Shown here: piece after piece, positions 8,114-15,586 of the stretch | How positions within the stretch are numbered: position 1 is the first letter of the stretch | Layout: every line of letters begins with the position of its first letter | Source of the DNA: Pseudomonadota bacterium | Lineage (GTDB): Bacteria; Pseudomonadota; Gammaproteobacteria; Burkholderiales; Gallionellaceae | Direction: 5' to 3' | NCBI GenBank assembly: GCA_021782995.1 | Contig: JAJXUI010000001.1 | Coordinates: 62,001-126,000, forward strand | Length of the DNA: 64,000 bases | Made by a program: the position numbers and the translations under genes | Notes under the pieces: model-generated | The model's input: the letters and a program-made list of their open reading frames with translations, nothing else | Told to the model about the DNA's origin: nothing | The model's database searches: none

Positions 8114-9061
8114 ATGAGTTTACTGTCGTTGATCTTTGCGCTCTTGCTGGAACAGCTGCAGCCGCTTGCATCCAGAAAGGGCCTGTATGCCTGGTTAAAG
8201 GGATATGTGGATTATTTCTACAGGAACTTTGATGGCGGGAACCGCAAGCATGGGCAGATTGCATGGGTTGTTGCTGTCCTGTTGCCATTTACTGGTACGG
8301 TGGCGATTTACTGGTTGTTGATGGCGCAACATCCAGTACTGGCCTGGGCATTTTGCGTACTGGTGCTGTACCTGACGATGGGATTTCGGCAGTTCAGCCA
8401 TCATTTCACGCGCATCCAGAAAGCCTTGCAGGCTAACGATCTGGAGCAGGCGCGTCGCCTGCTATCGGAGTGGCGGAAAGAGTCGTGTTCTGCGCTGAGC
8501 ACGGAAGAGGTGGTGCGCCTGACGCTTGAAGATGCCTTGCTGGCAAGCCACCGCAAGGTGTTTGGTGTTGTGGTCTGGTTTGTCATCTTCATGTTTCTTG
8601 GCCTGGGGCCAAGTGGTGCCATCCTGTATCGCATGAGTGGTTTTCTGTATGCAAGATGGCGGGAGATGGATTGGGAGGAGCAAGGGCATTTTTCCCGGTT
8701 TGCGACACAGGCATACCAGCTTGTGGAGTGGTTGCCATCCCGCATGACCGCTGCAAGTTTTGCCATCGCGGGCAACTTTGAGGATGCAGTGTATTGCTGG
8801 CGGAGCCAGGCTCGTGACTGGCCGGATCCTGTTGCCGGCATCATTCTGGCGAGTGGTGCTGGCGCCATGGGAGTCAGGCTCGGCATGCCTGTAGAACATC
8901 TCGATATGGTTGTCGACAGGCCGGAAATCGGGACAGGTGACGCGGCAGATGCAGATTTCATGCAGACTGCTGTTGGCCTGGTCTGGCGGGCACTGATTTT
9001 CTGGCTGCTGGTGTTATTGCTGTTGACGCTGGCTAGCATGACACGATGGGTCGGTATGTAG
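8114..9061 (+). CDS. CobD/CbiB-like membrane protein
   Basis: A 315-residue integral membrane protein with hydrophobic segments at about residues 50-85, 155-180 and 290-315. The N-terminus MSLLSLIFALLLEQLQPL and the middle RLTLEDALLASHRKVFGVVVWFVIF ... GPSGAILYRM resemble the CobD/CbiB and AmpE group. Betaproteobacteria often carry such a homolog outside any cobalamin operon, and none of the neighbours is a cobalamin gene. True CbiB joins aminopropanol to cobyric acid. That activity is not supported here by context. Function is left open. Confidence 0.75.
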   Translation: MSLLSLIFALLLEQLQPLASRKGLYAWLKGYVDYFYRNFDGGNRKHGQIAWVVAVLLPFTGTVAIYWLLMAQHPVLAWAFCVLVLYLTMGFRQFSHHFTRIQKALQANDLEQARRLLSEWRKESCSALSTEEVVRLTLEDALLASHRKVFGVVVWFVIFMFLGLGPSGAILYRMSGFLYARWREMDWEEQGHFSRFATQAYQLVEWLPSRMTAASFAIAGNFEDAVYCWRSQARDWPDPVAGIILASGAGAMGVRLGMPVEHLDMVVDRPEIGTGDAADADFMQTAVGLVWRALIFWLLVLLLLTLASMTRWVGM

Positions 9062-9204
9062 GAATTCCAAATACAGGAAATTTGATTCGTTTATATATTC
9101 CTTATGCGGCATGTGGAAATTAGAAGAAGAAATTTCTTATATATTTAATTTATTTTATTATGAATTTTTGATTGTTTTCGGTATCATTCCGCTGATTTGA
9201 TATT

Positions 9205-9262
9205 CCCCTGTAACCCCTGTAAACATTAGGGTTTCTGGTCGTCTGTCAAGTTCACCCCTGTA
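9205..9262 (+). repeat. Three direct copies of CCCCTGTA upstream of the redox cassette
   Basis: The octamer CCCCTGTA occurs at 9205-9212, 9214-9221 and 9255-9262, all on the plus strand. The first two start nine bases apart and the third starts 41 bases after the second. They sit 29 to 86 bases upstream of a promoter-like sequence. Clustered direct octamers in this position look like binding sites for an activator such as an OmpR- or NarL-type regulator. No regulator can be named. Confidence 0.5.
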
Positions 9263-9284
9263 GTCAGGATGCGCAGGGGGTGAA
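9251..9284 (+). promoter_or_regulatory. Imperfect inverted repeat in the 9062-9384 gap
   Basis: TTCACCCCTG (9251-9260) faces CAGGGGGTGAA (9274-9284), pairing over ten bases with one bulged G. The tail after it is TATCTTTT. It could end transcription from the CobD-like gene or be an operator, and it overlaps the third CCCCTGTA repeat. The rest of this 323-base gap is A+T-rich (9062-9200) with no gene seen. Confidence 0.4.
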
Positions 9285-9290
9285 TATCTT

Positions 9291-9319
9291 TTGCTTCATG
9301 TAAAATCTTCACATAAAAT
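9291..9319 (+). promoter_or_regulatory. Possible sigma-70 promoter of the redox cassette
   Basis: TTGCTT at 9291-9296 and TAAAAT at 9314-9319 are separated by exactly 17 bases. The -10 box matches consensus at five of six positions and the -35 box at three of six. It lies 65 bases before the cytochrome start, downstream of the octamer repeats, as expected if they act as activator sites. Confidence 0.4.
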
Positions 9320-9384
9320 CCCAAGTTGAGTTTTTTTGTTTAAAAAAAGTAATAGATGCATTTCATTTTAGAGGGGGGGGCTCA

Positions 9385-10557
9385 ATGCCAAAGCATATAG
9401 TTCGATTGTTGACAGTCATTGCTGTGATTGCAGTCGTGGCGTTAACCGCAAGATGGTTTTTCAGGGATAGTTCGTTTTATCGATATGGCCACTATCGTGG
9501 TGATGCGCCGGCAGAAATCGCATCCAAGCTACCCAAGCACCAGGGTTCGGCTTCCTGCCAGACCTGCCATAAGGCCATTTATGGCGAGTGGGCTGCAGGC
9601 ATACATCGCAAAGCTACAAAGGACAATGTCATCCAGGGTGTAGTAGTCAAGGCCGGCCCGGGTTGTGAGGTTTGTCACACTGCAGCGGGAAATCATCCAT
9701 CCAAGGAGCCGATGCCACTGTCAGTTGAAGACCAGATCACGACCATTACACATCTCAAACATCATACGCATGCCTCCAATATTCCGGGACGGAAGTTGAT
9801 GCTGACGCCAGACGAGATGCGCGGATTGTGCATGAATTGCCATGAAAAAATGCCTGGACGTCCTTCGAAGCAGCCACAGGTTGTGATTGAAACCCATGCT
9901 GGCGAAGAGTTGTGCACGACTTGCCATAATCCGCATTCGCCGAAGATTGACTACAACAAGGTGCCACGCCTTGTAGCAATGAAGAAAGCGGGCACTGCAA
10001 ATCCAGCAGCAGGTGGCTCTGTTGCCAAAAACTGTGCGACTTGCCATGGCGCGTCAGGCGTGAGCGCCAGTGGTGCCATCCCCAATCTGGCTGGGCAGAA
10101 GCAGGCCTACCTGGCAAATGCATTGCGCGCATATAAATCCAAGACGCGTGACAATGGCATCATGAGTGCGATGGCGGCAGGCCTGAGTGAATCCGACATT
10201 GATAATGTCGCTGCTTTCTATTCCAGGAACAGCTGCAAGGTAACCGGTGGTGACAAGAGCAAGATTGCTGCAGGCAAGGCCAAGTTCGAATCTGCCGGCT
10301 GTGCTGCGTGCCATGCATCGGGCGGCTTGCGCAAGCCGGGTATGGCCGGCATCAGTGCCAGCCAGGCATGGCCCAATCTTGCCGGGCAGAATGCGGAGTA
10401 TCTGAGCAGTGCGCTGAAGGCTTACCAGCAGGGTGCTGCCAAAGCGACACAGGAAGGTGGACGCTACAACCCGGTGATGACCGGCGTAGCCAAACACCTG
10501 AGTGAAACGGATATCGAGAATCTTGCTGCCTTCCTGGCCAGCACGAACTGCAAATAA
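9385..10557 (+). CDS. Hexaheme c-type cytochrome: tetraheme part plus cytochrome c4-like part
   Basis: A 390-residue cytochrome with a single N-terminal membrane segment (about residues 6-26) that may stay as an anchor facing the periplasm. Six CXXCH motifs start at cysteines 58, 94, 149, 177, 217 and 306. The first four sit in a compact region like the tetraheme modules of DmsE/c554-type cytochromes. The last two each head a class I domain with the pattern PNLAGQ...YL..AL.AY...M...LS..DI...AAF, as in diheme cytochrome c4. The ATG is preceded by a G-rich site (GAGGGGGGGG). It is followed by the iron-sulfur and NrfD genes at short spacing, which suggests one complex that passes quinone electrons to periplasmic carriers, or the reverse. 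Confidence 0.88.
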
Positions 10558-10577
10558 TTAACTGATTCAGCGAGGTT

Positions 10578-11474
10578 ATGATGATTGAACAGGAAAAAAA
10601 TGAAGTTACTGAAAACTGCGGCATCTCACGCCGCGGCTTTCTGGGTCTGCTGGGTGCAGGTGCAGCCACTGCTGCCGTTGTTGCCAGCACCGAGAGTGAT
10701 GCAAGCATGCTGGGCCACAAGTCAGACAAAAAGATGGGGTTCCAGCAATCGGAGTCGCAGTATGAGGAGGCATTGAACAACCCTCCGAAAATACCGAATT
10801 ACGACTGGAACAAGCACAGATGGTCTTATGGTGTGGATGTGGACCGCTGTATCGGCTGCCTGCGCTGCATGGAAGCCTGCAAGGCGGAAAACAGCGTGCA
10901 GGAAGATGCCAATCACCACCGTACCTGGGTAGAGCGTTATGTTTACCTTGAGGGTCAGGATGAGGCGATCGTGGATAGCTCGGCAGATCCTAAAAATATC
11001 GAGAATGTTGGCTCCGAGCTGCATTTCCGTTTTGACAACCGCTATGAGCAAGAGAAGGTCGAAAAGGCATTCTTCGTGCCCAAGCTGTGCAATCAGTGTG
11101 ATGAGCCTTCCTGTGTACAGGTATGTCCGACGGGTGCGACTTTCAAGGCCATGGATGGCGTGGTGTTGATTGACACCAAATACTGCTTCGGTTGCCAGTA
11201 TTGTGTACAGGCCTGCCCATATGGCGTTCGCAGCCTGAACGAGCAGCGCGGTACCGCAGAAAAGTGCAACTGGTGCTACCACCGCATTACCAAGGGTCTG
11301 AATCCGGCCTGTGTCGAGGTGTGCCCGACCGGTTCGCGCGTATTTGGTGACCTGAATGACGACAATAGCCCGATCAGCCAGTTCATCCGCAACAACAAGG
11401 TGACCGTGCTGAAGTCTGAAATGGGCAACAAGCCTAATCTGTATTACGTTGGTGCTGACAAGGAGGTTTCATAA
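10578..11474 (+). CDS. Tat-exported protein with four [4Fe-4S] clusters (DmsB/PsrB/HybA-like)
   Basis: A 298-residue ferredoxin-type electron-transfer subunit. SRRGFLG at residues 17-23 is a twin-arginine motif, followed by a hydrophobic stretch ending near ASTESDAS. Sixteen cysteines fall into four groups: 91/94/97/101, 171/174/179/183, 203/206/209/213 and 230/233/245/249, the standard layout of four-cluster subunits of the PsrB/DmsB class. In known complexes such a subunit relays electrons between a catalytic subunit and an NrfD/PsrC membrane protein. Its stop overlaps the NrfD start by one base, so the two are translationally coupled. The upstream cytochrome is 20 bases away. The likely partner here is that cytochrome, since no molybdopterin subunit is found. 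Confidence 0.93.
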   Translation: MMIEQEKNEVTENCGISRRGFLGLLGAGAATAAVVASTESDASMLGHKSDKKMGFQQSESQYEEALNNPPKIPNYDWNKHRWSYGVDVDRCIGCLRCMEACKAENSVQEDANHHRTWVERYVYLEGQDEAIVDSSADPKNIENVGSELHFRFDNRYEQEKVEKAFFVPKLCNQCDEPSCVQVCPTGATFKAMDGVVLIDTKYCFGCQYCVQACPYGVRSLNEQRGTAEKCNWCYHRITKGLNPACVEVCPTGSRVFGDLNDDNSPISQFIRNNKVTVLKSEMGNKPNLYYVGADKEVS

Positions 11475-12673
11475 TGGAGAGCGTTTTCGAGCATGTTTCG
11501 TCCTATGTCGGCTATGTTTATCCGAATGAAACCGAAGTGCCATGGACAGAGCTGATTGTCATCTACCCTTATATTACGGGCTTGGTTGCGGGTGCATTCG
11601 TGGTGTCCAGCCTGCACCATGTATTCGGTATTGACCGTTTCAAGACCATTTCGCGTTTTGCGTTGTTGACGGCCTTGTGCTTCATGTTCTTTGCGCCAGT
11701 TCCCCTGCTGTTCCATCTGGGTCAGCCTACTCGCGCATTTGAACCCATCATCACACCGCACTGGACGTCAGCAATGGCGGCATTCGGTTATGTGGCCAGC
11801 TTCTATGTTTGCCTGTTGTTGCTGGAGGTGTGGTTCGCATTCCGTGAAGACATTGTTCGCTACTCCAAGAGCAGTAAAGGTTTTAAACAGAAAATCTATC
11901 AGCTACTGACTCTGGGCTCGGATGATGTATCGCCTAAGGCACTGGAAATTGACCACAAGATTGCCCGTATCCTGGCGATGGTGGGTATCCCCGGCGCAAT
12001 GGGTCTGCATGGTTATGTCGGCTTCGTGTTCGGTTCGCTGAAAACCCGTGAATGGTGGTCTTCCGATCTGATGCCGCCGATCTTCCTTTTATCGGCAGTG
12101 GTTTCGGGTGTGGGCTTGCTGATCGTGTTGTACATCATCACCAGCAAACACCGGAAAGTAACGCCCAGCCATGAGGCAATGGTTGGCCTGAAGCAGGTAT
12201 TGTGGGCATCGCTCGTCATCGTGCTGGTATTCGAGGGGCTGGAGTTGCTGGAGATGGTGTACAAGGCCCGTGAAGGCATCGAGACCGTCATGGCGCTGAT
12301 CAGGGGACCAATCTGGGCTGGCATGACGATCCAGTGGGGATTGTCTTTCTTCTCGCTGGTAGTGCTGTCTGCGATGATGATCAAGAATCCCACAGGCAAG
12401 AAATTTGTCGGCTGGCTGTTTGCATGTGGCCTGGCCATGATGATTGCGGTGCTGGCGATGCGCTGGAACGTGGTAATTGGCGGTCAGGAGCTGTCCAAGA
12501 CGATGAAGGGTCTGCTGACTTATCATCCGCTGATTGTGGGCCGCGAAAGCCTGATGACAGTGTTGATGCTGTTTATTGCCCCATTCGTTACGCTGTATTT
12601 TGCAACGCAGTTCCTGCCACCCTGGGACGACAGCAAATCCAGAGCTGAAGGCAAGCATACGTCGCATCATTGA
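11474..12673 (+). CDS. NrfD/PsrC-type quinone-interacting membrane subunit
   Basis: A 399-residue polytopic membrane protein of the NrfD/PsrC family. Segments such as WTELIVIYPYITGLVAGAFVVSSLHHVFG, FHLGQPTRAFEPIITPHWTSAMAAFGYV and the HKIARILAMVGIPGAMGLHGYVGFVFG block are characteristic. Family members bind quinones and exchange electrons with an adjacent four-cluster iron-sulfur protein. The ATG at 11474 shares one base with the preceding TAA. No subunit follows; a strong hairpin lies 29 bases after the stop. The complex would thus consist of cytochrome, iron-sulfur protein and NrfD only. The direction of electron flow cannot be told from sequence. Confidence 0.93.
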   Translation: MESVFEHVSSYVGYVYPNETEVPWTELIVIYPYITGLVAGAFVVSSLHHVFGIDRFKTISRFALLTALCFMFFAPVPLLFHLGQPTRAFEPIITPHWTSAMAAFGYVASFYVCLLLLEVWFAFREDIVRYSKSSKGFKQKIYQLLTLGSDDVSPKALEIDHKIARILAMVGIPGAMGLHGYVGFVFGSLKTREWWSSDLMPPIFLLSAVVSGVGLLIVLYIITSKHRKVTPSHEAMVGLKQVLWASLVIVLVFEGLELLEMVYKAREGIETVMALIRGPIWAGMTIQWGLSFFSLVVLSAMMIKNPTGKKFVGWLFACGLAMMIAVLAMRWNVVIGGQELSKTMKGLLTYHPLIVGRESLMTVLMLFIAPFVTLYFATQFLPPWDDSKSRAEGKHTSHH

Positions 12674-12702
12674 AGCAATAGAATAAAGAAGTAAAAAATA
12701 TT

Positions 12703-12732
12703 CAGGGCCTGCATGGGAACATGCAGGCCCTG
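12703..12732. terminator. Perfect 13-bp hairpin after the NrfD gene
   Basis: CAGGGCCTGCATG (12703-12715) pairs perfectly with CATGCAGGCCCTG (12720-12732) around a GGAA loop. It is followed by ATGTTTTG, a weak T-tract. The position after the cassette and before the convergent MFS gene fits an intrinsic terminator. Confidence 0.75.
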
Positions 12733-12825
12733 ATGTTTTGATCTGCGGAATTTATTGCAACCCGGCTACGGGGACTCTGAGCTCCCTGTGATCTGACTGT
12801 GCGGAAGTGGCGGGTTTGCCTTGTA

Positions 12826-14148
12826 TCAGTCCGCAGGATTGAGTCGAGGGTGTGTTTCATCGCACCATTTCAGTACGATGAGTCCTGATACAAACATGGC
12901 AATGCTTACGAAACTGAATCCGGCTACGATGCCATTGGTGGTGCTGGCGATCCATCCCAGTGCCAGTGCACCGATGCCATAGCCCAGATCACGCCAGAAA
13001 CGGTAAATGCCGATTGCGGAGCCTCGCCATGCGGGATGTGCGATGTCGCTGACTGCTGCACTCAGGTTTGGATAGAGGAGGGCCATGCCAAAACCGGTGA
13101 TGGCTGCCGATATGCTCCACCACAGGATGCCGCTGCCCAGCAGCATCATGCCTGTGCCGGCGGCGCAGATCCACATGCCCCATACGATAGGCTTCTTGCG
13201 TCCGATATGGTCAGAAAGTTTTCCGGTCATGAGTTGCGAGCCACCCCATACAAAACCATAAATGCCGACTATCCAGCCTATGTGTGCCAGATCCAGCCCA
13301 TGCTGGAACAGGAAAACCGGATAGAACACCCATACCAGGGCATCCACGAATTTCTCGATGAGGCCTGCCTGGCTGATAGATGCCAGACGCTTGTCGCGCC
13401 AGGACATCACCAGGAAGATTTCCCGGGTGGAAGGTGTTTCTGTAATCATTGCAGGGTAGCGTGGCTTGTGTAGTGTGCCGTTCCCTGTCATGTGCTGGTG
13501 GCTTTCAGCTTTGGCCCAGGGCAGGGTGTCCTTTACCCAGATCAGCGTCAGCAGGATGGCCAGGAAAATGACGGTCAGCCCGAATATCAGCAAGCCGGTG
13601 CGGGCACCCAGTAATGTTGCAAGGTATCCGGTCACGATGCCGGCTATGGCGACACCGAAATAACCTGAGAACTCGTTGAGTCCGATGGTCAAGCCGCGCT
13701 GGTCGGCATGGGTGATGTCCAGCTTTGAGGTCTGCGTCATAGACCAGGTGAATCCCTGGTTGATGCCCAGCAGGATCGTGGCAAACACAATCCAGTTCCA
13801 GCTTGGTGCGTACATGATGAGGAAAGGAATGGGAATGGCGGTGATCCATCCAGTGAGCAGGGCCTGCTTGCGGCCTATGCGCTCGGACAGCCTGCCGGCA
13901 ACAAAATTCAGTATCCCTTTCACAAAACCGAATGCGACCACAAAGGACATCAGCAGGACAAAAGACCCTTTGGGCACACCGAACTCGCTTTCGGCCAGTG
14001 CGGGTATAACTGTTCGCATCATGCCCAGCGTCAGGCCGACCAGCAGTACCTGTACCAGCTGATGGATGAACTGCTCAAGATTGATGCGGATGCCGCGTTG
14101 ATATTGGTCTTGTGGCGATAAAATATTCTGCATGGAATCCATATGCAT
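12826..14148 (-). CDS. MFS transporter in the sulfide operon
   Basis: A 440-residue major facilitator superfamily protein with about twelve membrane segments. GRLSERIGRKQALLTGW and GKLSDHIGRKKPIVWG are the two loop 2-3 motifs, one in each half. It starts 3 bases after the stop of the persulfide-dioxygenase-like gene, so the two share a transcript. By context it may carry sulfur oxyanions or another product of sulfide breakdown; many BigR-type operons instead carry TauE/SafE or YeeE/YedE transporters. ATG at 14148 (MHMDSMQN) is used; a second ATG two codons later is equally possible. The substrate is inferred only. Confidence 0.85.
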   Translation of the reverse strand: MHMDSMQNILSPQDQYQRGIRINLEQFIHQLVQVLLVGLTLGMMRTVIPALAESEFGVPKGSFVLLMSFVVAFGFVKGILNFVAGRLSERIGRKQALLTGWITAIPIPFLIMYAPSWNWIVFATILLGINQGFTWSMTQTSKLDITHADQRGLTIGLNEFSGYFGVAIAGIVTGYLATLLGARTGLLIFGLTVIFLAILLTLIWVKDTLPWAKAESHQHMTGNGTLHKPRYPAMITETPSTREIFLVMSWRDKRLASISQAGLIEKFVDALVWVFYPVFLFQHGLDLAHIGWIVGIYGFVWGGSQLMTGKLSDHIGRKKPIVWGMWICAAGTGMMLLGSGILWWSISAAITGFGMALLYPNLSAAVSDIAHPAWRGSAIGIYRFWRDLGYGIGALALGWIASTTNGIVAGFSFVSIAMFVSGLIVLKWCDETHPRLNPAD

Positions 14149-14151
14149 CTG

Positions 14152-14886
14152 TCACGCTGCAATATTGGCTGCAACCATCGCATCCATTTCTGCAGGACGC
14201 GGCGGAATGTTCTGTGTGACCTGTTTAATGAAATCATTCCTGTCATTCATTTTCAGGGTCGGATTGAAGCGTTTTTCAAAGCCGATCGTGGAAGAGGGTT
14301 TGCCGGAGATGCCGGCACCACACACACTGCCCGCCTGATGGGCGGGGAAGATTTCCGTTTCATCAGGAAGATTGAGCAACTTGCCTTGCAGGCTGTCAAA
14401 CAGCCTGCCGGCCATCTCCTGTTCGCGACCGGCAAGATCGGGTCGTCCAACACTGCCTACGAACAGGGTATCGCCGGTAATGACAAACCAAATCTGGTCG
14501 CCGCGACGGTTGTCGGATATCGCAAGGCACACGCTGTCCAGCGTATGGCCAGGCGTATGCAGCACTTTCACAAATACGTTACCGACCTCGATGATCTCGT
14601 TGTCCTGCAGGGGGGTGAATGGAAATTTCACAATGTCACGGTTGCTTTCATGCAGGCAGTATTTGGCGCCCACCAGTTCGGCCAGCTTGCGTCCCCCGGA
14701 ATAATGATCGGCATGGATATGCGTGTCGATGACATGCGTGATGGTGACAGATGCTTTTCGTGCTTCCTCGATAAACCATTGTTCGTCGCCGGCAACGACA
14801 TCGACGGCGATAGATTTGCCCAGCGTGCCGCATCCCATGAAGTAGGAAAGGGATGAGTCCTTGGCGGGTAATTGTTTGAAAAACAT
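14152..14886 (-). CDS. Metallo-beta-lactamase fold hydrolase, persulfide dioxygenase-like (ETHE1/Blh)
   Basis: A 244-residue MBL-fold protein of the ETHE1/Blh type. DTHIHADH gives metal-site residues H56, H58, D60 and H61, H114 is in HTPGHT, and D139 is in TGDTLFVGSVGRPDL. This last stretch with PAHQAGSVCG is typical of persulfide dioxygenases, which oxidise glutathione persulfide to sulfite with one iron atom in the cytoplasm. It lies between an ArsR-rhodanese regulator (25 bases upstream) and an MFS gene (3 bases downstream). That arrangement parallels BigR/Blh operons of plant-associated bacteria. Lactonase or glyoxalase II activity cannot be excluded from sequence alone. Confidence 0.85.
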   Translation of the reverse strand: MFFKQLPAKDSSLSYFMGCGTLGKSIAVDVVAGDEQWFIEEARKASVTITHVIDTHIHADHYSGGRKLAELVGAKYCLHESNRDIVKFPFTPLQDNEIIEVGNVFVKVLHTPGHTLDSVCLAISDNRRGDQIWFVITGDTLFVGSVGRPDLAGREQEMAGRLFDSLQGKLLNLPDETEIFPAHQAGSVCGAGISGKPSSTIGFEKRFNPTLKMNDRNDFIKQVTQNIPPRPAEMDAMVAANIAA

Positions 14887-14911
14887 GGAGTCCTCCTGAG
14901 TAATTACAGTT

Positions 14912-15586
14912 TCAGTGTTCGATGTTCAATCCGTGCGCAAGCCATTCGGCAACACCATCATCCAGCCTGTGTGCATCAATGCCCTCATTTTTGAGTATCT
15001 TTACTGCTTCGGAGGCAAACAGGCAGAAGGGGCCGCGGCAATAGGCAATAACGGTTTTGTCGAACGGGATTTCAGCAATGCGTTTTTTCAGTTCGGTCAG
15101 CGGAATTGAGCGGGCGTACGGTAAATGTGCGGCCGCATATTCATTTTCGGGACGCACGTCTATGACTACGATGTCGCCGCGCTCCGCTTCACGCATCAAT
15201 GCCTCGCGGTCCAGTCTGGCGAGTTCGCCTGATCCGCTCACCATGCCGGCCAGCGCAGCCTGCAAATCCAGCAGACGCTCTTCAGCGAGTGTGCGGATGC
15301 TGACCCAGAAGCCCGCAACGTCTTCTGTCGCGAGGCGGTAATAGATATTTTTGCCTTCGCGGCGACTTGCCACCAGATTGGCTGTTTTCAGCACATTCAG
15401 GTGAGCGCTGGCCAGCTTGACGCTGATTTCTGCAGACTGTGCCAGTTGTTCTACATTCATTTCACATTGGCATAGCAGCTCCAGCAGTTCCAGCCGTTTG
15501 GGGCTGGAGACGGCTTTGCCCATAATGGAGACTTGCTCGTATAGTATATCTTTGATTTTTCTATGGTTATTTGATTCTGCTGACAT
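14912..15586 (-). CDS. ArsR-family regulator fused to a rhodanese domain
   Basis: A 224-residue fusion. Residues ~15-105 form a winged helix of the ArsR/SmtB family (SSPKRLELLELL, then VKLASAHLNVLKTANLVASRREGKNIYYRL). Residues ~125-222 form a rhodanese domain with VIDVRPENEY and the loop YCRGPFCLFAS (C183, C188). The only cysteines in the regulator part are C39 and C41 in LCQCEMN; C41 matches the first sensor cysteine position of SqrR/BigR, but the second one near residue 107 is absent. The protein probably represses its own operon and senses reactive sulfur, with the rhodanese part perhaps delivering the persulfide. A perfect operator-like repeat lies 9 bases before the start codon. Confidence 0.92.
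   Translation of the reverse strand: MSAESNNHRKIKDILYEQVSIMGKAVSSPKRLELLELLCQCEMNVEQLAQSAEISVKLASAHLNVLKTANLVASRREGKNIYYRLATEDVAGFWVSIRTLAEERLLDLQAALAGMVSGSGELARLDREALMREAERGDIVVIDVRPENEYAAAHLPYARSIPLTELKKRIAEIPFDKTVIAYCRGPFCLFASEAVKILKNEGIDAHRLDDGVAEWLAHGLNIEH

Follow-up and report, generated by a model that had tools for sequence, protein, structure and literature searches.

Respiratory modules that pair a multiheme cytochrome with an NrfC-type iron-sulfur (Fe-S) protein and an NrfD-type membrane subunit, without recourse to molybdenum, are already on record. The available sections of PMC8076601 list NrfABCD, MccACD and NhcABCD as such modules, and the accessible part of PMC11434368 presents the Geobacter Cbc4 (CbcSTU) set, made of a cytochrome, an Fe-S protein and a membrane subunit with no molybdoenzyme, as a menaquinol:ferricytochrome c oxidoreductase and mentions look-alikes in Shewanella. 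Here we describe a three-gene cassette of comparable composition at positions 9385-12673 of a 64-kb stretch of DNA from a member of the Gallionellaceae (contig JAJXUI010000001.1, positions 62,001 to 126,000; hereafter the window). The source genome, G000, amounts to 2.75 Mb in 73 contigs and is 85% complete. We estimate at about 0.6 the probability that the three proteins act as one inner-membrane quinone:cytochrome c oxidoreductase at the place of complex III, the activity itself being predicted. The elements of the cassette are the following.

9385..10557, + strand: hexaheme c-type cytochrome, 390 aa (open reading frame, six CxxCH motifs, Pfam and PDB sequence matches)
9544..9954, + strand: tetraheme module, heme motifs at residues 58-62, 94-98, 149-153 and 177-181, invariant extra His 74, 104, 171 and 184 (alignment A4, 27 sequences)
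9997..10236, + strand: c4-like domain 1, heme motif 217-221, invariant Met260 (cytochrome c4 match, alignment A4)
10255..10554, + strand: c4-like domain 2, heme motif 306-310, invariant Met365 (domain and c4 matches, alignment A4)
10578..11474, + strand: twin-arginine translocation (Tat)-type four-cluster [4Fe-4S] protein of the NrfC/TtrB/PsrB type, 298 aa (open reading frame, Pfam, cysteine pattern)
11474..12673, + strand: NrfD-family integral membrane subunit with ActC-like fold, 399 aa (Pfam NrfD, structure match)
11714..11716, + strand: His81 codon, predicted quinone-site residue (aligned with the His of E. coli NrfD and ActC; invariant in alignment A5)
11768..11770, + strand: Ser99 codon, predicted quinone-pocket serine (aligned with ActC and E. 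coli NrfD; invariant in A5)
12702..12733, either strand: terminator-like hairpin (14 pairs, folding energy)

In its three-gene composition and its lack of a molybdoenzyme the cassette equals CbcSTU, a likeness of composition alone, but its cytochrome adds two c4-like His/Met domains, and CbcU is called b-type in a legend of PMC11434368. With alternative complex III (ActABCDEF) it shares an NrfD subunit of ActC fold carrying the quinone-site His and Ser, as well as the association of a multiheme cytochrome with an Fe-S subunit; unlike that complex, it has no ActB1, ActD, ActE or ActF genes and its cytochrome is hexaheme rather than pentaheme. NrfABCD, MccACD and SirCD, as portrayed in the texts available, likewise combine an NrfC-type and NrfD-type quinol module with a multiheme cytochrome and no molybdenum, whereas no adjoining NrfA or MccA was identified for the cassette, whose cytochrome has His/Met tail domains. 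The Fe-S and NrfD-type pair of QrcABCD also exchanges electrons with periplasmic cytochromes (PMC13059093, available part), but the cytochrome is a different one and the cassette has no QrcB-like neighbour, as judged with ActB1, a QrcB relative, as the query. Similarly, PCC4 subgroup II (He et al. 2017) clusters a tetraheme cytochrome, a Pfam 13247 Fe-S gene and an inner-membrane protein, but it includes a porin, and the five-helix membrane protein of PCC4 contains two HX13H motifs, a His pair that the cassette NrfD lacks (PMC5566968, available part). Finally, the hallmark of the complex iron-sulfur molybdoenzymes (CISM; Psr, Ttr, Dms, Qrc), a molybdopterin subunit encoded in the operon, is missing.

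The cassette is not a new kind of system, since cytochrome and NrfCD modules without molybdenum are already known. According to the original prediction, made by a model from the letters of the stretch, a molybdopterin protein or more cytochromes usually accompany such subunits in known complexes; this is not supported as worded, CbcSTU (PMC11434368) and Nrf, Mcc and Nhc (PMC8076601) being free of molybdenum in the sections available. What appears to be new is the four-plus-two hexaheme cytochrome, the presence in iron oxidisers and the occurrence without bc1 and alternative complex III. No description of a hexaheme/Fe-S/NrfD set in Gallionellaceae was found in the open literature, as far as its accessible text extends, and a prior mention is possible.

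The three open reading frames at these coordinates, the six CxxCH motifs, the Fe-S and NrfD families and the closing hairpin had all been read from the sequence beforehand and were confirmed by open reading frame, Pfam and fold checks. The cytochrome and Fe-S genes are separated by 20 bp, and the Fe-S gene overlaps nrfD by one base (TAATG). From this spacing and overlap and from the conserved gene order we infer that the three genes are co-transcribed. The 14-pair hairpin at 12702-12733, whose surrounding 70 nt fold at -33.7 kcal/mol (z -7.8), is common to the cassette and to a convergent MFS gene on the opposite strand (12826-14148). A scan of 9050-12850 returned no sigma-70 consensus.

A locus scan with one genome per species gave 28 named loci with an NrfD relative of 52-84% identity. 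All 28 have the Fe-S gene ahead of nrfD, and in 26 the pair is preceded by a six-heme cytochrome gene, so that the three-gene order, for which a search in other genomes had been suggested, is not a product of chance. The two exceptions are L035, where the contig begins inside the Fe-S gene, and L033, where the cytochrome gene is broken by N. The nrfD frame is open in 27 of the 28 loci; in L048 (G001:C13:398422-399536) it is split over two frames in a near-complete genome, which may reflect sequencing error or decay. The genes flanking the cassette vary between genera. Among the matches listed, the cassette is carried by 14 of the 100 Gallionellaceae genomes sampled. The Fe-S gene adjoins in each of the 14; the six-heme gene is present in 13 and missing from G106, where the contig ends. 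At the order level there are matches at E 1e-60 in eight of 399 genomes, of which six are not Gallionellaceae, and at the phylum level three of 398 match at 1e-30, the window's own included. One cassette, with an NrfD 57% identical to the window's, lies on a contig labelled Alphaproteobacteria (L049, JAGWON010000011.1), a case of either mis-binning or transfer.

In the cytochrome, Pfam recognises c7-type multiheme and cytochrome c domains, and residues 206-384 match cytochrome c4 structures in a PDB sequence search. In an alignment of 27 cytochromes (A4: the window and 26 loci, leaving out the N-interrupted L033 and the cut L035) the six CxxCH motifs are invariant. Outside the motifs, His is invariant at His4 and at four further positions (74, 104, 171 and 184), which all lie in the tetraheme part. 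Each c4-like domain contributes one invariant Met, 260 in the first and 365 in the second, and apart from the start residue no other Met is invariant. When eight more sequences are added, His74, His171 and His184 are kept in 35/35 and His104 in 34/35. The exception, a cytochrome from a distant cassette (L112, 9950-10693), lacks the first tetraheme CxxCH, is unaligned at His104 and has a single c-type domain. Because of the invariant motifs, the four extra His and the two Met, the chain would contain four low-potential and two high-potential hemes, and its simplest reading is one of four bis-His and two His/Met hemes. A low-potential entry (the tetraheme part) and a high-potential exit (the c4-like part) would thus be combined in a single polypeptide, as the original prediction had suggested. 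A helix at residues 2-25 of the structure model is a predicted membrane anchor. Cys389 is invariant and Cys284 conserved in >90% of the 27 sequences, each at the end of a c4-like domain, where a disulfide or another link is possible.

Outside the family, six heme motifs occur in the three-gene units of L108, L109 and L111. Other relatives are shorter: the L112 cytochrome has three plus one motifs, and in L110 there are four, with a stop codon directly after the tetraheme part. L114 has a four-motif cytochrome gene with a contig edge at the gene start; downstream of its nrfD come genes for a monoheme membrane protein and for two small cytochromes with one heme each. The L113 contig begins inside the Fe-S gene. 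Since relatives lack all or half of the c4 tail, the core unit is tetraheme/Fe-S/NrfD, with the c4-like part as an addition. The series of tetraheme-only, three-plus-one and four-plus-two forms illustrates how a quinone module of a known kind can acquire an exit domain.

The second subunit matches Fer4_11 and further 4Fe-4S families of Pfam. The 16 Cys for four [4Fe-4S] clusters are invariant in six aligned Fe-S sequences, and the cysteine pattern is found in 28/28 loci. A twin-Arg motif is present in 27/28, in a weaker form in L049, L050, L052 and L053; the sequence of L035 is cut. With its 16 Cys and a putative Tat signal read from the twin-Arg motif, the protein fits an NrfC-type subunit. 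Its nearest curated families are TtrB, DsrO, ArrB and NrfC, each with a score below cut-off, and this resemblance would suit a different role, in which the cassette oxidises quinol on behalf of a periplasmic or extracellular reductase system of the Nrf, Mcc or Cbc style, with the gene for the terminal reductase at another locus. Geobacter CbcSTU is tied to extracellular reduction in the available part of PMC11434368, and the cassettes of L050 and L111 have, a few genes away at most, a nonaheme-b561 protein and proteins built of four c4-like domains. However, the gene lists of the Gallionellaceae cassettes show no consistently adjoining reductase; in the lists of the 28 loci no five-heme open reading frame, as expected for the pentaheme NrfA, adjoins the cassette, and a cut frame with five heme motifs at the edge of L053 lies on the opposite strand at a distance of 3.4 kb. 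A high-potential acceptor would also be a better match for the two His/Met hemes than a reductase of low potential, and we regard the reductase role as unlikely.

Assignment of the third subunit to the NrfD/PsrC family follows from its Pfam NrfD match (4.3e-35, 122 bits against a cut-off of 25.8), from an NrfD/ActC/PsrC fold and from a helix-2 His and a pocket Ser. The structure model (mean predicted local distance difference test score (pLDDT) 76, predicted template-modelling score 0.80) has about nine helices. In a fold search the ActC chains of four alternative complex III structures occupy ranks 1-4 (Z 32.5-35.1, root-mean-square deviation 2.7-3.6, 354-367 aligned residues), followed lower down by ActF (Z 26.0), bd oxidase (22.7) and PsrC (19.3), whereas a PDB sequence search with the same protein had no hit at E 0.1. 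Both His81 and Ser99, which do not vary among 26 sequences (A5, which omits L033, L048 and L053), fall on the corresponding residues of ActC and E. coli NrfD in the alignment. The quinone-site His and Ser of ActC and NrfD were assigned by Calisto and Pereira (PMC8076601, available part), and His81 and Ser99 are the predicted equivalents. The earlier description of the locus as a quinone-redox cassette is supported. Sequence identity is 17-25% to ActC, DsrP-type, E. coli NrfD and Psr-type proteins, and only 17-20% to four ActC from the same family. Thirteen cassette NrfD proteins form one supported clade (99/98) in a tree whose deep joins are unreliable owing to long branches, so that only this clade is used here; three rows meant for the 418/419-aa class, selected on their composition, may represent different membrane proteins, and no conclusion depends on them.

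Taken as one oxidoreductase, the cassette would work as follows. Quinone would be bound by NrfD close to the periplasmic side of the membrane, the Fe-S protein, exported by Tat, would pass electrons across its four [4Fe-4S] clusters, the anchored cytochrome would accept them on its four bis-His hemes, and the two His/Met c4-type hemes would deliver them to cbb3 oxidase or to soluble periplasmic cytochromes. Cytochrome c4 serves as an electron donor to cbb3 in other bacteria. Since the cassette is a set of electron carriers, it might also run in reverse, from cytochrome to quinone (for NADH), if driven by the membrane potential. The observed basis consists of the genes, their domains and order, the conserved ligands, the absence of an adjoining catalytic subunit and the predicted NrfD fold; that the proteins form a complex, the path and direction of the electrons, the heme potentials, the partners and any coupling to protons are inferences. 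The structure model of the cytochrome weighs on the other side, as it is weak in the tetraheme part, with 157 residues of the cytochrome below pLDDT 50.

The reverse run could even be the main one. Cyc2 or Mto, followed by periplasmic cytochromes, would then bring electrons from Fe(II) to the c4-like end, and quinone would be reduced at the expense of the proton motive force to supply NADH production and CO2 fixation, a proposal that overlaps with the preferred reading and differs from it in direction. In the sections available, the described Gallionellaceae are mostly iron oxidisers (PMC10734462), alternative complex III of Sideroxydans ES-1 is strongly up with Fe(II) and proposed for reverse flow (PMC8788666), and QrcCD, a like pair of proteins, reduces menaquinone from a cytochrome (PMC13059093). 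The window genome also has an MtoA-type decaheme protein above cut-off. On the other hand, such a protein scores above cut-off in only 6/14 cassette genomes, a count that rules out a general Mto link of the cassette, and the window genome has a dsr cluster, with DsrK above cut-off, that points to sulfur oxidation; electrons from this source may enter the quinone pool, and the cassette would then have to run downhill. With both an MtoA-type protein and DsrK, this genome has plausible substrates for either direction, and we consider the Fe(II)-to-quinone direction a serious possibility, if short of even odds.

The absence of a molybdopterin gene near the cassette had been part of the original prediction. 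Four tblastn queries (DmsA, NapA, a Psr-like protein and ActB1) found none in the 64-kb window. They were also run against 47 cassette loci of 3,966 to 20,000 bases (564 kb with duplicates), which reduce to 36 distinct stretches once 11 second copies of the same contigs are removed; two of the 36 (L027, L033) share an identical nrfD stretch. The control loci were recovered in 7/7 cases. The sole cassette locus matched was L016, where DmsA weakly hit (8.9e-5) a nitrate-reductase-like gene; this gene lies upstream of the cytochrome gene at a distance of about 6 kb. The absence thus held among the neighbours, where a consistently adjoining molybdopterin gene had beforehand been set as the observation that would tell against the prediction. 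With this gene, about 6 kb away, as the only case among 36 stretches, an ordinary Psr/CISM enzyme with its catalytic gene nearby is ruled out. ActB1 matched no cassette locus, its strong matches being L117 (itself), L119, L120 and L121, and no ActD, ActE or ActF genes appear in the cassette-locus gene lists when read against the alternative complex III loci. A molybdopterin subunit might still act in trans, the cassette then being part of an ordinary Psr/Ttr-like enzyme with an extra cytochrome. Its Fe-S and NrfD proteins are of the kind found in such enzymes, and the nearest outside proteins compared belong to a Psr-like operon of the same order (NrfD 24.5%, Fe-S protein 42% identity). However, the stretches searched, which cover neighbours only, hold no molybdenum subunit other than the distant gene of L016, and the constant operon member is the cytochrome instead; we therefore think this arrangement very improbable.

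Whether the cassette can replace the usual complex III was approached through an inventory of 100 genomes of the family, in which NrfD relatives were classed by length and profile range; all counts are among the matches listed (weakest 6.4e-12), the cytochrome c1 count discounts matches of 24-26 positions in G011, G020, G033 and G070, and gene neighbours were examined in 5/53 ActC genomes and, for DsrP, in three and the window's own. Besides other classes, the cassette occurs in 14 genomes and ActC in 53. Of the cassette genomes, three have neither ActC nor c1 (G000, G002, G113), five have c1 and six have both; of the rest, 83 have ActC or c1 and three (G014, G102, G114) neither. Both are thus lacking in 3/14 cassette genomes against 3/86 others (Fisher p 0.034, kinship uncorrected); put the other way, the cassette is present in three of the six genomes with neither and in 11 of the remaining 94. 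The C-terminal domain of cytochrome b was not found in G000, G002 or G113, all three of which have ccoN above cut-off, as do 10/14 cassette genomes overall; G002 is 99% complete. No NapC/CymA match was obtained in G000 and G002. In these two genomes the cassette is, among the matches listed for the families searched, the only quinone-to-cytochrome c link found besides DsrP-type NrfD proteins. DsrP and ActC proteins alike score far below the NCBIfam DsrP cut-off. A strict swap of alternative complex III for the cassette is ruled out, ActC being present in 6/14 cassette genomes against 47/86 others (p 0.57).

It is tempting to go further and see in the cassette the sole respiratory complex III of some Gallionellaceae (G000, G002 and perhaps G113), that is, a three-subunit third type beside bc1 and alternative complex III. 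Several points speak against this. G000 and G002 are sister species, which weakens the p value of 0.034, and G000 is only 85% complete. Cytochrome c1 is found in 11/14 cassette genomes, six of which also have ActC, so that the cassette is usually not the only such complex, and G014, G102 and G114 demonstrate that lacking both does not require a cassette. Another quinone link is possible in G000 and G002, through a monoheme membrane protein or through the DsrP-type NrfD proteins present in both, and G113 has a NapC/CymA-type protein. We thus put the idea forward tentatively, as doubtful. If it were true, the cluster-facing hemes and the high-potential hemes that feed the oxidase would share one polypeptide.

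The monoheme membrane protein, with one CxxCH and an RVSHIHLFG stretch invariant in nine aligned sequences, is found near or after several cassettes. That of L031 has no Pfam family match. Its sites are:

G000:C23:12066-12749 (L135); L031, 2345-3079; L046, 5455-6189; L093, 8483-9217; also L050, L052, L053, L114 and L115: monoheme membrane protein

In G000 the gene order is hemE-priA-monoheme gene and in G085 priA-cassette-monoheme gene (G085:C5:256562-257272), which looks as though the cassette had left this neighbourhood. Small monoheme cytochromes are encoded 3' of nrfD in L029, L042, L043, L051 and L091 (PSCyt1 type in L029 and L043), and none in the window between the cassette and the convergent MFS gene. 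The nonaheme proteins of L050 (7223-9346) and L111 (5211-7265) have nine CxxCH motifs joined to a membrane part, with a weak b561 match in L050. Further along the minus strand of the window (14152-15586), a metallo-beta-lactamase-fold protein adjoins an ArsR-rhodanese fusion, for which a sulfur-responsive role is a guess.

In neutrophilic iron oxidisers the link between cytochromes and quinone is usually ascribed to bc1 or to alternative complex III, whose role is called speculative in the available parts of PMC4643136 and PMC8788666. The cassette is a further candidate for the periplasmic cytochrome-quinone link in these organisms, and in some species it may stand in for the usual complex III.

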